64,000 nucleotides of DNA, from the NCBI GenBank assembly GCA_025458865.1, contig JALORP010000026.1, positions 1 through 64,000 of the forward strand, read 5' to 3'. The stretch comes from Steroidobacteraceae bacterium (GTDB taxonomy: Bacteria > Pseudomonadota > Gammaproteobacteria > Steroidobacterales > Steroidobacteraceae). A model generated the notes under the pieces. The model was not told where the DNA came from and ran no database searches. It was given only the letters and a program-made list of their open reading frames with translations. Positions 27,037 through 56,578 of the stretch are shown piece by piece (positions within the stretch are counted from its first letter, which is position 1; every line of letters begins with the position of its first letter). The position numbers and the translations under genes are program-made.

Positions 27037-27052
27037 TGCAACCCCCGTGCCA
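27037..27052 (-). promoter_or_regulatory. sigma-54 promoter for flgA
   Basis: Minus strand TGGCAC-ggggg-TTGCA; ideal -24/-12. Confidence 0.85.
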
Positions 27053-27287: not shown

Positions 27288-27303
27288 TGGCACGCGACTT
27301 GCT
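27288..27303 (+). promoter_or_regulatory. sigma-54 promoter for flgB operon
   Basis: TGGCAC-gcgac-TTGCT; 44 bp upstream of flgB ATG. Confidence 0.92.
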
Positions 27304-39312: not shown

Positions 39313-39328
39313 TGGTACGGAACTTGCT
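39313..39328 (+). promoter_or_regulatory. sigma-54 promoter for fliD operon
   Basis: TGGTAC-ggaac-TTGCT, 33 bp upstream of fliD ATG. Confidence 0.85.
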
Positions 39329-41141: not shown

Positions 41142-41470
41142 CGGCAGTCGCGCGCGCCGCGGAGCCGGTCGACGGGCTCGAGCAGGCGCTCGCGCTCACC
41201 GCCGAGCTGCGCGCCTGCGTCGAGGCGGGCGACTTCGAGGCGGCCGCCGACCTCGAGGCGGCGCGCCGCGCGCTGCTCGAGGATTTTTTCGCCGTTCGGC
41301 CGCCGGCCGCGGACCTCGAGCGCTGCGTTGGCCTGCTGCGCGAGCTCGTGGCGGCCAACGACGTGCTGGTCGGCCTCGCCGACCACCTGCAGCGCGCGCT
41401 CGCGCGCGAGGTCGAGACGCTCGGCACGGGTCGCCGCGCCGTCCGCGCCTATGGCGCCGCCGGGCCATGA
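41138..41470 (+). CDS. fliT: FliT-like flagellar chaperone
   Basis: 110 aa helical protein, overlaps fliS stop; assigned mainly by position. Confidence 0.6.
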   Translation: MTAVARAAEPVDGLEQALALTAELRACVEAGDFEAAADLEAARRALLEDFFAVRPPAADLERCVGLLRELVAANDVLVGLADHLQRALAREVETLGTGRRAVRAYGAAGP

Positions 41471-42053
41471 GCCTGCCTTGAGCGCCAGCGGCGACAGCGA
41501 CTTCACCGACGGCCTGCACTTCGACGGGCAGCTGTCGCTTGCCTTCGAGGGCGACGACGCCGAGCCGCTGCCCGCGACGCTCGCGCGCCTCAATGCCGAC
41601 AACCTCCAGGTGCTGCAGTCCGACGCATCGCTGGCCGAGTCGCACCGCATGGTGGACGCCAAGGACGAAGAGCGGCCCTGGCTGGCGGACCTTGCCCGCC
41701 TCGAGTTCAAGCTCGACGTGCTGCTCGGCACGCTCGGCCGGGTGCTCGCGCGCGAAGCCGTGATGCCGGCCGCCGTCCCGGTCCGGATGTACGCGGGCGG
41801 CATCGAGTGGCTGGCGCAGGACGATCGCCCCGTGACCGGCGCCCGCGGCCGCCTGACGCTCTACGTGAATCCGTCCTTCCCGCAGCCGCTGCAGGTATAT
41901 GGCCGGGTGATCGGCTACCGCAGCGACGGGCATGGACTCTGGGCGCAGTTCGCCTTCGGCGGGCTGAGCGCCCCGGTGGTGGACATGCTCGAGCGACTGG
42001 TCTTCCGGCAGCACCGCCGGCAGGTGGCGGGCGCGCGCGGGGCGGGTGCCTGA
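41451..42053 (+). CDS. PilZ-like cyclic-di-GMP receptor domain protein
   Basis: ARGRLTLYVNPSFPQPLQVYGRVIGY...GLWAQFAFGGLSAPVVDMLERLVFRQHRR; start uncertain (ATG 41451 or TTG 41478). Confidence 0.65.
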   Translation: MAPPGHEPALSASGDSDFTDGLHFDGQLSLAFEGDDAEPLPATLARLNADNLQVLQSDASLAESHRMVDAKDEERPWLADLARLEFKLDVLLGTLGRVLAREAVMPAAVPVRMYAGGIEWLAQDDRPVTGARGRLTLYVNPSFPQPLQVYGRVIGYRSDGHGLWAQFAFGGLSAPVVDMLERLVFRQHRRQVAGARGAGA

Positions 42054-42268: not shown

Positions 42269-43621
42269 GTGACCGACACGAAAGTCGCCGTCATCGAGCC
42301 TGACGCCAGCCGGATTCCGGCCTGGCACAGCGCCCTCCACTTCCTCGACTACCAGCCGGTCATCGCCCCGACGCTCGAGGCGCTGGACTGGCCCCGGCGG
42401 GCAGCGCCCGACTGGGCCGCCCTGGTCATCGGGCACGCCCGCCCGCGCCGGATCCTGGAGGAAGTGGCGGCGCGGCTTGGCGTCGCGGGCGGGCCGCTGC
42501 CCGTCGTCTGCACCGAACCGCTCGGCCACGACCCGGCGCTGGGGTCGATGCTCGTGCCGCTGCCGCTCGAGTTGCCGCTGCGCTATCCGCAGCTGTCGGC
42601 CGTCCTGCACGAGGCGCGCCGGCTGCGCGCGGCCCAGGCGCCCGGGGCGAGCGCGTGGCGCCCGGGCGGCTCATCTCCGGCCATCGGAGCCGTGCACCGC
42701 CTGTCGGAGCAGGTCGCCGCATTCGACACGAGCGTGCTGATCCTCGGCGAATCCGGCACCGGCAAGGAAATGGTGGCGCGCTACATACACGAGCTGTCGC
42801 CGCGCGCGCACCGGCCCTTCGTGCCGGTCAACTGCGGGGCGATCCCGCCGGACCTGCTCGAGAGCGAGCTGTTCGGCCACGAGAAAGGGGCTTTCACCGG
42901 CGCCCTCACGACGCGCGTGGGGCGCTTCGAGTTCGCCGAGGGTGGCACCCTGTTCCTCGACGAGATCGGCGACATGCCGCACGCCATGCAGGTCAAGCTG
43001 CTGCGCGTGCTGCAGGAACGCAGCTTCGAGCGTGTCGGCAGCAACCGCAGCCAGCGCTGCGACGTGCGGGTCATCGCCGCGACCCACCGCGACCTCGAGG
43101 CCGCGATCGCCGATGGCCGCTTCCGCGAGGACCTCTACTACCGCCTCAACGTGTTCCCGATCCAGATGCCGCCGCTCAGGGATCGCATCGCCGACCTGCC
43201 TGCGCTGATCGACCAGCTCGGCGCGCGCCTCGAGGCGTCCACGGGGCGGCGCGTCAGCCTGACCGCCGCGGGGCTCGCCGCCCTCGGCCGCTACGGCTGG
43301 CCGGGCAACGTGCGCGAGCTCGCCAACCTGCTCGAACGCCTGGTGATCCTGTATCCCGGCGAGCGGATCGGGCCGGAACTGCTGCCCGAGCGCTACCGCG
43401 CCGGCGTGGCGACCGGGCCGGTGCCGGAGGCGGGCCTTGCGCTCCCCGGCGAGGGCGTGAGCCTCAAGGATCACCTCGCGCAGCTCGAGGTCACCATGAT
43501 CCGCGAGGCGCTCGCCCGCGCGGACGGCACCGTTTCCGAGGCAGCCCGCCTGCTCGGCCTGCAGCGCACCACCCTGGTCGAGAAGCTGCGCAAGTACCGC
43601 CTCGAGGCCCGCGCTGCCTGA
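42269..43621 (+). CDS. fleQ: sigma-54-dependent flagellar master regulator FleQ
   Basis: AAA+ [29 protein letters not shown]-terminal [25 protein letters not shown]; flagellar locus. Confidence 0.9.
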
Positions 43622-43739
43622 GCCCGGCCCCGCTGCCGTGGCCGCGCCGTCCCGGCCAGACTCCTCCGTCGACGGTTTTTTGACGCGGGCCCGCCGCGTC
43701 GAGTCACGCTAAGTCATTGTTTTATAGATGGTCAGTGTC

Positions 43740-43755
43740 TGGCACGGATATTGCT
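43740..43755 (+). promoter_or_regulatory. sigma-54 promoter for fleSR
   Basis: TGGCAC-ggata-TTGCT, 33 bp upstream of fleS ATG. Confidence 0.9.
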
Positions 43756-43788
43756 GGACTGTCCGGTGGTATTCCCCGGCGAGGGTCC

Positions 43789-44966
43789 ATGTCGGCCGCC
43801 ATCGAACAACGCCAGCTGAACGACGCGTTTCGCGCCTTCAACGAGCTGTCCACCTCGCTCGAGCGCTCCTACCGCGACCTCGAGTCGCAGGTGTCGCGGC
43901 TGAACGAGGAGCTCGCCTCCGTCCGGCGCGCGCGGCTGGAGGAGCACCGCGCCCGGGAGCGCATCGCCTCGCGCCTCGAGCGGCTGCTGGCGCTGCTGCC
44001 GGGCGGCGTGCTGGTGCTGGACGCGGACGACGTCGTGCGCGAGTGCAACGCGGCCGCGCGCGAGATGCTCGGCAGTCCCCTCGAGGGCGAGCCTTGGTCG
44101 GCCGTCTGCGCGCGCGCGATGCAGCGCGCGAGCGTTTTCGGCGGCGAGGTGCCGCTCGCCAGCGGTCGCCACGTCTCGCTCGCACAGCGCAGCCTCGGCG
44201 ACGAGCCCGGCCGGATCGTCCTGGTGACCGACGTGACCGAGGCGCACCTGGTGCGCGAGCTGCTGGAGCGCAACGGGCGCCTCGCCGAGATGGGCGAGAT
44301 GGCGGCGCGACTCGCCCACCAGCTGCGCACGCCGCTGACCACGGCGCTGCTTTACGCCTCGCGGCTGGCCTCGCCCTCGCTGCCGCCGGAGCAGCGCGAG
44401 CCGCTCGCCGCGCGCACGGTCGACCGCCTGAAACACCTCGAGCAGCAGGTGGCGGACATGCTCGCCTACGCGCGCGGTGGCGCGAGCGGGCTTGCGCCGC
44501 TGTCGCTGGATGCGGTCCTCGAGGACGTCGCGCAGACCCTCGCCGGGCGCCTGAAGGCCGGCGGGCGGCTGACGCTGCGCACGCGTGCCCCGGGCCTGAC
44601 CGTCCTCGGCAACCGCGATGCCCTCGCGGGCGCGGTGGCGAACCTCGTGATCAACGCCCTCGACGCCGGCGGCGCCGGCGCGGAGGTCCTGGTCGAGGCC
44701 AGCCGGCCGCAGCCCGGCATCGCGCGCATCACCGTCGCCGACAACGGCCCGGGCGTGCCCGAGGCCCTTCGCGACCGGATCTTCGAGCCCTTCTTCACGA
44801 CCCGTTCGGCGGGCACGGGCCTCGGCCTCGCGGTCGTGCGCTCGGTCGCCGTGGCGCACGGCGGCTGCGCGCGCCTCGAGCCCGGCGCCGCCGGCGCCAC
44901 GTTCGTGATCGAGATTCCCCTCGGCGACGGTGCGGCGGCGCCGGCGGGCGCGACGGAGGCAGCCTG

Positions 44967-44967
<1 letters not shown>
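43789..44967 (+). CDS. fleS: sensor histidine kinase FleS
   Basis: PAS-like region, HisKA ([14 protein letters not shown]), HATPase ([28 protein letters not shown]). Confidence 0.9.
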
Positions 44968-46319
<1,352 letters not shown>

Positions 46320-51779: not shown

Positions 51780-51795
51780 TGGCACGTCACTTGCA
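51780..51795 (+). promoter_or_regulatory. sigma-54 promoter for fliK
   Basis: TGGCAC-gtcac-TTGCA. Confidence 0.85.
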
Positions 51796-53084: not shown

Positions 53085-53187
53085 TGGCGCGCACGCGGCG
53101 CGCCTCGCGCCGCCCGTGCAGAGTTTCCCTGGGGCCCGTCGGCTAGAATGCCGGGGCCGTCGCGACCGCGGCCCGGGGAAAGCGCCA

Positions 53188-54183
53188 GTGCAGCCCAGCC
53201 TCACCATCGGCGAGATCCGCGCCGCGCGCCGCCAGCTCGGCGACCTCGTGCTCACCACGCCCGTGCACGAGCTGACCGGGCCGGCCGTGGACCTGGCGCT
53301 CGCGCCCGGCACGCGAGCGGTGCTGAAGCTCGAGCTGCTGCAGCGGACCGGCAGCTTCAAGCCGCGCGGCGCGCTCCTCAACATGATGTCGCTGTCGCGC
53401 GATGAACTGGTGCGCGGAGTCTGCGCGATCAGCGCCGGCAACCACGCGGTGGCGACCGCCTACGCCGCCTCCCGGCTCGGGACGCACGCGAAGATCGTCA
53501 TGATCGCGACCGCGAATCCCTTCCGCGTCGCGCAGTGCCGGGCCTTCGGCGCCGAGGTGGAGTTCGCCGCCGATGCGCACGCCGGGTTCCAGCGGGTCGA
53601 GGAGCTGCAGATCGCGGAGGCCCGCCCGCTGATCCACCCCTTCGAGGGCCTGCGCACGGCGCTCGGCACGGCTACGCTGGGGCTGGAGTTCATGGAACAG
53701 GCGCCGGACCTCGAGGCGGTGGTGGTGCCCATCGGTGGGGGCGGCCTGTGCGCGGGCGTCGCCGCGGCGGTGAAGCTGGTCAACCCGGGCTGCGAGGTGT
53801 TCGGCGTCGAGCCCGAGGGCGCCGACTCCATGCACCGCAGCTTCGCCGCCGGACGGCCGGTCGCGATCGAGCGGGTAGCCACCATCGCCGACAGCCTCGG
53901 CGCGCCGTACGCGCTGCCGGTGTCCTTCGCGCTCTGTCGCGACAACGTGGATGAACTCGTGCGCGTGGACGACCGGGCCCTGGTGGGCGCCATGCGCTTC
54001 CTGCTCGAGCAGGCCAAGCTCGCGGTCGAGCCCGCGGGCGCGGCTGCGACCGCGGCGCTGCTCGGGCCGCTGCGCCACCGGCTCGCCGGTCGCCGCGTCG
54101 GCCTCGTCGTCTGCGGCGCGAACATCGACGCCGATTCCTACGCGCGCCTGGTCCTGCAGGCCGCGCCCGCGCCGGCCGGCTGA
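53188..54183 (+). CDS. PLP-dependent threonine/serine dehydratase-like protein
   Basis: LQRTGSFKPRGALLNMM PLP-Lys motif; SAGNHAVATAYAA; IGGGGLCAG; GTG start. Confidence 0.88.
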   Translation: MQPSLTIGEIRAARRQLGDLVLTTPVHELTGPAVDLALAPGTRAVLKLELLQRTGSFKPRGALLNMMSLSRDELVRGVCAISAGNHAVATAYAASRLGTHAKIVMIATANPFRVAQCRAFGAEVEFAADAHAGFQRVEELQIAEARPLIHPFEGLRTALGTATLGLEFMEQAPDLEAVVVPIGGGGLCAGVAAAVKLVNPGCEVFGVEPEGADSMHRSFAAGRPVAIERVATIADSLGAPYALPVSFALCRDNVDELVRVDDRALVGAMRFLLEQAKLAVEPAGAAATAALLGPLRHRLAGRRVGLVVCGANIDADSYARLVLQAAPAPAG

Positions 54184-54194
54184 GGGGTCCTCGC

Positions 54195-54647
54195 GTGCCC
54201 TGGGACGCCGTGTTCGCCTACCTGCACCTCCTCGCGGCCGGCGTGTCGGCGGCGCTCAAGGTCGCGGAGCACTGGCTGCTGGCGCGTCCGCCGGACCGTC
54301 TCCAGGTCCGCCTGCTCGGGCAGGCGCGGCTCGGATACCTGCTGGCCATCACCACCGTGCTGGCGACGGGACTCGTCCGGCTCCAGGGGATGGGGGGCTC
54401 GCCGGTCCTGGCCTCCGGAAGCAGCCTGTTCGCCGTGAAGATCGCGCTGTACGTCCTGCTGCTGCTGCTCGCGGTGCCCACGACGGGCACCATCGTGCGC
54501 TGGAATCGCGAGGCGCACAGCCCGCCCGCCTTCGCGCCGCGGCTGCGGGAACTCGAGGCGCTGCGCGCGACGGTCTCGCTGGAGATCGGCCTGCTGGCGC
54601 TCGTGCCGCTGCCGGCCGTGATGCTCGCGCGCGGCGCAGGCTTCTAG
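54195..54647 (+). CDS. DUF2214-like integral membrane protein
   Basis: FAYLHLLAAGVSAALKVAEHWLL and further TM segments. Confidence 0.65.
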   Translation: MPWDAVFAYLHLLAAGVSAALKVAEHWLLARPPDRLQVRLLGQARLGYLLAITTVLATGLVRLQGMGGSPVLASGSSLFAVKIALYVLLLLLAVPTTGTIVRWNREAHSPPAFAPRLRELEALRATVSLEIGLLALVPLPAVMLARGAGF

Positions 54648-54663: not shown

Positions 54664-54793
54664 GCACGAGCCGCGTCGCGCTCGCCGCCACGCGCCAAAA
54701 TTCTGACGGCGACCATGGCCGAGGGCTGCAAGGGCCTTCGCTGAATCTCTACAGTACTCTGAATAATATAGGAATTTCCTCGAACCCCTGCCG

Positions 54794-54809
54794 TGGCACG
54801 TAAATTGCT
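54794..54809 (+). promoter_or_regulatory. sigma-54 promoter for fliL operon
   Basis: TGGCAC-gtaaa-TTGCT. Confidence 0.92.
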
Positions 54810-54838: not shown

Positions 54839-56245
54839 GTGATGGTCATGGCTGAAGAACAGCAGGCAGCGCCGCCGGCCAAGTCGGGCGGCGCGCTCGG
54901 CATGGTCATAAACGGCGTGGGCATCTTCGTGCTGACGCTTGCCGCCGTGGTGGCCGGCGGCTTCATCAACGCCAGGCTGCATCCGCCGCAGGAACTGGTC
55001 CTCGATAAGGAGGGCAGGCTCACGCTCAAGGCGCCCCCGGCCGCCGCGGCAGGCGCCAAGGGCGGCGCGAAGCCGGCGGGGCCGGCCGTCTACTACGCCT
55101 TCGACCCGCCCATCGTCGTCAATTTCCAGCAGGACGGCGCGGTGCGTTTCCTGCAGGTGACGGTCGAGGTGATGGCGCGTGACGCGGCGACGATCACCGC
55201 CGTGCAGCAGAACGGGCCGCTCATCCGCAACAACCTGACGCTGATGATGAGCAGCCTCGAGCATGACCAGGTGATGTCCCGAGGCAAGGCCCCGCTGATC
55301 ACCGACGAGGAAGTCCAGGCGCTGCTCGACCGCGCCGGCCCCGCCCTGCGCCGGCCCGCCGAGGCCCGCGCCTACGATCTCGCGGGCACGCAGCGCATCA
55401 CGCGCGGCCGGCTGCCGACGCTCGAGCTGCTGCTGGAGTCCTTCGCCCGGCAGTTCCGCACCCACCTTGCCGACCTCGTCCGTCGCGAGCTTCAGGTCAC
55501 CTACGAGGGCGTGCAGGCCCAGCGCTGCGGCGATTACCTCGCGGCGCTGCCGTCCCCGGCGTGCCTCGACATCGTCCGTGCGCGGCCGCTTCCCGGCCAG
55601 GTGATGTTCGCGATCGACCCGGACCTGCTCGGACTGCTCGTGGATGCGTTCTACGGCGGAGCGGGGCGCAGCGGCGCACGCCACGCCGACCGCGGGCTCA
55701 CGCCGACCGAGTCGCGCTTCGCGCGCCTGGTCATCAGGCACGCGATGGCGGACCTGGCCGCGGCCTTCGCGCCGGTGGCGAAGCTCGAGCTCGAGCCGGT
55801 CAAGCAGGAGCGCAGCGCGCATTTCGTGGACATCGCCGGTCCGACCGAGACCCTGCTGGTCAATCGCTTCCGGGTCGAGCTCGGCGCCGCCGCCGGCTCC
55901 ATCGACTTCGTCCTGCCCTCCGCGGCGATCGAGCCGCTGCGCGAGGTGCTCGCCTCGGGCACCGCGCTGCGCGAGACGCAAGGCGCGGCCCCCTGGGCGC
56001 CCGCGCTGGCGCGCGGCCTCGCCGAGGCGAAGGTCGAGGTGCGCGCGGTGCTGGCCGAGGTGGACATCAGCCTCGGAGAACTGGTGCGCCTCAAGCCCGG
56101 CGACGTCGTGCCGATCGAGGCGCCCCGCGAGGCGGTCCTGCTCGCCGGCGAAGTGCCGCTGTACCGCGCCCGTTTCGGCGTCTCCCGCGGCCGCAATGCC
56201 CTCACCGTGACCGAAGCCCTGCGCCCGGGTGAGGCCCGGCGCTGA
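54839..56245 (+). CDS. fliL-fliM: FliL-FliM continuous reading frame (FliL about 54848-55273; FliM could initiate internally at ATG 55274)
   Basis: N-terminal FliL TM and core (GMVINGVGIFVLTLAAVVAGGF, YYAFDPPIVVNFQQDGAVRFLQVTVEVMARD) runs in frame into FliM (LITDEEVQALL, YDLAGTQRITRGRLPTLELLLESFARQFRTHL). Confidence 0.9.
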   Translation: MMVMAEEQQAAPPAKSGGALGMVINGVGIFVLTLAAVVAGGFINARLHPPQELVLDKEGRLTLKAPPAAAAGAKGGAKPAGPAVYYAFDPPIVVNFQQDGAVRFLQVTVEVMARDAATITAVQQNGPLIRNNLTLMMSSLEHDQVMSRGKAPLITDEEVQALLDRAGPALRRPAEARAYDLAGTQRITRGRLPTLELLLESFARQFRTHLADLVRRELQVTYEGVQAQRCGDYLAALPSPACLDIVRARPLPGQVMFAIDPDLLGLLVDAFYGGAGRSGARHADRGLTPTESRFARLVIRHAMADLAAAFAPVAKLELEPVKQERSAHFVDIAGPTETLLVNRFRVELGAAAGSIDFVLPSAAIEPLREVLASGTALRETQGAAPWAPALARGLAEAKVEVRAVLAEVDISLGELVRLKPGDVVPIEAPREAVLLAGEVPLYRARFGVSRGRNALTVTEALRPGEARR

Positions 56246-56266: not shown

Positions 56267-56578
56267 ATGTCCACCCAGACCGCCGCCGCGATGCCCGCCG
56301 ACGCCCATGCCGCCAGCGAGGTCAGCCTGGACCTCATCCTCGATGTCGGCGTGACGCTCGCGCTGGAGATCGGGCGAACCCGGATCAAGGTCCGCGACCT
56401 TCTGCAGCTGTCCGCCGGCTCGATCCTTGAGCTCGACCGCCTCGCGGGCGAGCCGCTCGACGTGCTGGTGAACGGCGTGCGCGTCGCCCGCGGCGAGGTG
56501 GTCGTGGTCAACGACAACTTCGGCGTCCGCCTGACCGAGGTCGTGAGCCCGCGGGAGCGGATCGAGGGCGTGCGCTGA
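56267..56578 (+). CDS. fliN: flagellar motor switch protein FliN
   Basis: LDVGVTLALEIGRTRIKVRDLLQLSAGSILELDRLAGEPLDVLVNGVRVARGEVVVVNDNFGVRLTEV. Confidence 0.97.
   Translation: MSTQTAAAMPADAHAASEVSLDLILDVGVTLALEIGRTRIKVRDLLQLSAGSILELDRLAGEPLDVLVNGVRVARGEVVVVNDNFGVRLTEVVSPRERIEGVR

Follow-up and report, generated by a model that had tools for sequence, protein, structure and literature searches.

Do FliL, a stator-associated membrane protein, and FliM, a protein of the flagellar rotor ring, form a single polypeptide in this bacterium? The question is raised by one reading frame in the flagellar gene cluster of a Steroidobacteraceae bacterium, which begins as FliL and ends as FliM. The window analysed here is the 64,000-nucleotide stretch of contig JALORP010000026.1 that holds this frame. 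The source genome is a draft of 3.09 Mb in 105 contigs, 87% complete, and the species is represented by this one genome.

Reading Frame and Domain Content

The main features of the locus are the following.

54839-56245, + strand: joined open frame, from ORF reading
54848-55288, + strand: truncated fliL, comprising the cytoplasmic tail, the transmembrane segment and the periplasmic domain up to MSR(GK); PF03748 positions 1-67 of 103, and alignment with 12 relatives
55274-56245, + strand: fliM from an internal ATG, 323 aa, complete, with the N-terminal motif ITDEEVQALL; from the sequence and Pfam
56267-56578, + strand: fliN, intact, the next gene of the operon; PF01052 positions 2-72 of 73

The first-pass annotation had claimed that FliL passes without interruption into a full FliM, and this is confirmed both by reading the frame, which is free of stops over 468 codons, and by domain matches to the two families. 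The FliL profile is matched with an E-value of 2.2e-9 at 38.2 bits, above the curated cut-off of 24.6, over the first two thirds of its length only. The middle domain of FliM is complete (PF02154, 1-192 of 192, E-value 1.2e-43), and so is the FliMN_C domain (PF01052, 3-72 of 73). Accidental long open frames are common in this region because its stop density is low (72% GC, with only one stop per 270 codons in one alternative frame). Since the domain matches are real in both halves, the FliL-FliM join is not a chance open frame. The frame itself opens at GTG 54839 as annotated; the FliL protein, however, is more likely to start at ATG 54848 (MAEEQQ..., compare MAEE or MADE in the aligned relatives). 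The FliL part has a predicted single N-terminal transmembrane segment and a short cytoplasmic tail, but in alignment with relatives it falls short of a complete periplasmic domain with the final FTSFVVQ strand, the last 37 or so residues being missing.

Comparison with Related Genomes

The distance between the two genes was measured from the R of the FliL motif MSR/MTR to the start of the ISDEE-like motif of FliM. It is 15 nt here (MSR to ITDEE), as against 134-239 nt in 14 relatives. Aligned with relatives, FliL homology extends through MSR(GK), and FliM homology restarts at PLITDEE / PLLSEQE. Relatives have 37-38 FliL codons between MSR and the stop, which bears out the earlier estimate that about 35 FliL residues were lost, and the comparison likewise supports the proposal that the FliL stop and the FliM start went with them. 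A further suggestion concerned a possible remnant of the ancestral boundary.

55272-55276, + strand: TGATG, suspected stop/start overlap; GTG ATG here encodes V-M, the counterpart of LM in relatives

The pentamer is indeed present, but it fails as evidence of a stop/start overlap: relatives encode LM at this place, and it is uninformative because any xTG-ATG codon pair spells TGATG. With the FliL MSR match standing at the right place, an ancestral overlap at 55272 appears less likely.

FliL is present in 144 of the 217 genomes of the family and in 149 of 276 in a sample of the class. Among the matches listed in these two surveys, which are the stronger ones, it reaches the end of the profile except in the copy described here and in copies cut by a contig end, and none of the other listed copies is joined to FliM. 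Only our match runs through both proteins as one chain among those listed for a sample of the order. The first-pass annotation had named close relatives with a normal stop and start, together with evidence of local misassembly, as grounds against its proposal, and such relatives were found: in about 25 relatives whose junction DNA was read, FliL ends in ...FTSFV(V/M)Q or similar and has its own stop, adjoining or overlapping a separate fliM start. Long open frames in relatives were considered as possible further fusions and rejected, the DNA showing stops between FliL and FliM; a short FliL match (G133) proved to be a copy cut by a contig end rather than a truncated protein, and the matches of another genome (G169) are spread over two contigs. 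A contig scan with the whole joined protein as query returned no match, and one with the FliM alignment returned 12 loci. Literature searches turned up no fliL-fliM fusion.

Two relatives, FW602_bin.2 (G191, the nearest) and Steroidobacteraceae LE19-196.1M (G025), share with our locus the gene order fliL-fliM-fliN, a sigma-54 promoter upstream of fliL and a full FliM. They differ in that their FliL is complete and has a stop of its own, which overlaps or adjoins a separate fliM start, whereas our locus has lost both of these signals and about 37 FliL codons.

Promoter and Genome Context

Two regulatory features lie upstream of fliL.

54794-54809, + strand: sigma-54 promoter TGGCACGTAAATTGCT of the fliL operon, from a consensus scan
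54694-54707, + strand: FleQ-like palindromic motif GCCAAAATTCTGAC, a possible enhancer, with no second motif of this kind found in the window

The promoter is conserved, a sigma-54 element being present upstream of fliL in all nine loci of named relatives tested, and in four loci (L085, L088, L089 and L094) a similar palindromic motif precedes the sigma-54 site by about 100-110 nt. By its consensus, GCCAAAATTCTGAC is presumably a FleQ site. Further sigma-54 consensus sites are found at 27288-27303, 39313-39327, 43740-43755 and 51780-51795 on the forward strand and at 27037-27052 on the reverse strand; several of the sigma-54 sites are near flagellar gene starts, and the cluster encodes two sigma-54 activator-type proteins (42269-43621 and within 43728-46319). 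A gene for an atypical PilZ (tPilZ) c-di-GMP receptor (41328-42053) adjoins fliS/fliT. Between fliK and fliL lie genes for a PLP-dependent enzyme (PF00291) and a DUF2214 membrane protein (53116-54647); in G191 (locus L085), in contrast, fliK is directly upstream of fliL.

No second match to FliL or FliM was found in the genome itself, at 87% completeness in 105 contigs. The genome carries a near-complete flagellar cluster, in contrast to the five others of the genus (G001-G005), in which no match to FliL, FlhA or the query was found. This absence is firmest for the genus-mate that is 96% complete, because the other four are less than 90% complete. From flgB to motB, each cluster gene that was tested aligns with its family over the greater part of the profile, flgB only weakly, and none of them shows a second sign of decay. 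This is compatible both with a deletion of recent date and with an error of assembly.

Discussion

We favour, with a probability of about 0.56, a single deletion that is present in the organism, with any working FliM made from ATG 55274 and motility impaired. Such an event would have removed about 120-170 nt (131 nt by comparison with G191), taking away the end of fliL, some 37 codons and the stop, together with the start of fliM, and the join would have brought the FliL frame into the FliM frame. The breakpoints may have been short direct repeats.

55283-55288, + strand: GGCAAG at the inferred deletion junction, a 6-nt repeat present at both edges in G191

At the edges in G191, GGCAAG is the only common repeat of at least 6 nt, lying in EGK of FliL and in NGK of FliM, and a deletion between its two copies would yield MSREGK-PLLSEQE, near our MSRGKAPLITDEE. 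Our sequence is without the E of MSREGK, so that these breakpoints are only approximate; a comparison with this one relative, at about 50-60% identity, suggests a deletion by way of the short repeat.

Translation from the fliL start would yield a membrane protein whose FliM part ends up outside the cytoplasm, and hence a useless one. Working FliM would thus have to start at ATG 55274, originally a methionine of FliL (the M of MSREGK) and now 8 codons before the N-terminal motif of FliM. The first-pass annotation had singled out this in-frame ATG, and it does give a FliM of normal length with that motif. ITDEEVQALL is the CheY-binding motif, and whether the N-terminus of FliM is free in the cytoplasm depends on initiation at 55274. 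The Shine-Dalgarno sequence there is weak: AGGUG abuts the start, with a duplex of -3.8 kcal/mol compared to -7.7 for fliN. With this poor ribosome site, and without translational coupling to a fliL stop, FliM would be scarce. The leftover N-terminus and transmembrane segment of FliL would in addition be expected to impair motility.

The deletion might also exist only in the assembly of this single genome. That the organism has a normal fliL and fliM, and that the contig lost about 130 nt at the junction by misassembly or strain mixing, is a possible explanation to which we give real but lesser credence. It is consistent with a fragmented and incomplete draft and with the normal state of the nearest relatives, and a lone motility-damaging lesion is odd in a cluster whose other tested genes look complete. 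On the other hand, usual assembly word sizes exceed 6 nt, the length of the edge repeat in the nearest relative. An assembler would not be expected simply to collapse so short a repeat, and DNA carrying this junction probably did exist; for this reason a real deletion is given somewhat more weight.

It is improbable that the loss of FliL is fixed and tolerated, with cells swimming on FliM started at ATG 55274 and what is left of fliL persisting as a harmless pseudogene that has yet to decay. In PMC10127578 FliL is considered dispensable for motility, the promoter is retained here, and both FliM and the remaining flagellar genes of the cluster appear complete; the remnant, however, retains the N-terminus and the whole transmembrane segment, as do alleles reported to impair motility, and the ribosome site at 55274 is weak.

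A real, functional fusion linking the stator-associated protein to the rotor ring, the headline of the first-pass annotation, can hardly be upheld. The frame is open and coding-like in composition over its whole length (GC3 0.92), and conserved FliM positions are retained. Nevertheless, FliL is oriented N-in/C-out (PMC10127578, PMC6426602) and FliM is cytoplasmic; the FliL domain lacks its end, and with it the residues that correspond to L160 and V165 of Vibrio; fliL alleles of this type are reported to impair motility (PMC10127578); and no relative has such a join among the matches listed. It is just as hard to credit that one gene gives both a membrane-inserted FliL-FliM fusion and, in parallel, free FliM from the internal start. 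The two explanations offered earlier beside the rotor-stator link, an internal translation start in a fused gene whose FliL is truncated and an assembly or strain artefact, both survive. The cause is thus most likely an ordinary one, a deletion by a single genetic accident in the organism or by an error of assembly.

Should the organism itself carry the junction, this would be a natural counterpart of laboratory fliL alleles that damage motility, and it may show a flagellar system at the onset of loss, next to five genus-mates without detectable FliL or FlhA. Should the junction have arisen in assembly, the case warns against inferring fusions from single draft genomes.

The known fliL alleles provide the closest comparison for a real deletion. 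Motility is kept in full fliL deletions and in alleles without the N-terminal region, and is lost in alleles that have the N-terminus and the transmembrane segment but not the C-terminal periplasmic domain (PMC10127578). The allele described here resembles the delta-fliL3 class of that study, with the N-terminus and transmembrane segment kept and the C-terminal domain damaged, but it retains about two thirds of the domain profile and its frame continues into FliM; because part of the periplasmic domain is kept, impaired motility is a prediction from this likeness. The periplasmic core of Vibrio FliL (6ahp, 6ahq) gives a profile match over the domain, and the part lost here aligns with the end of that core, where two residues of known role are found: localization requires L160, and V165 is important in activating the stator.
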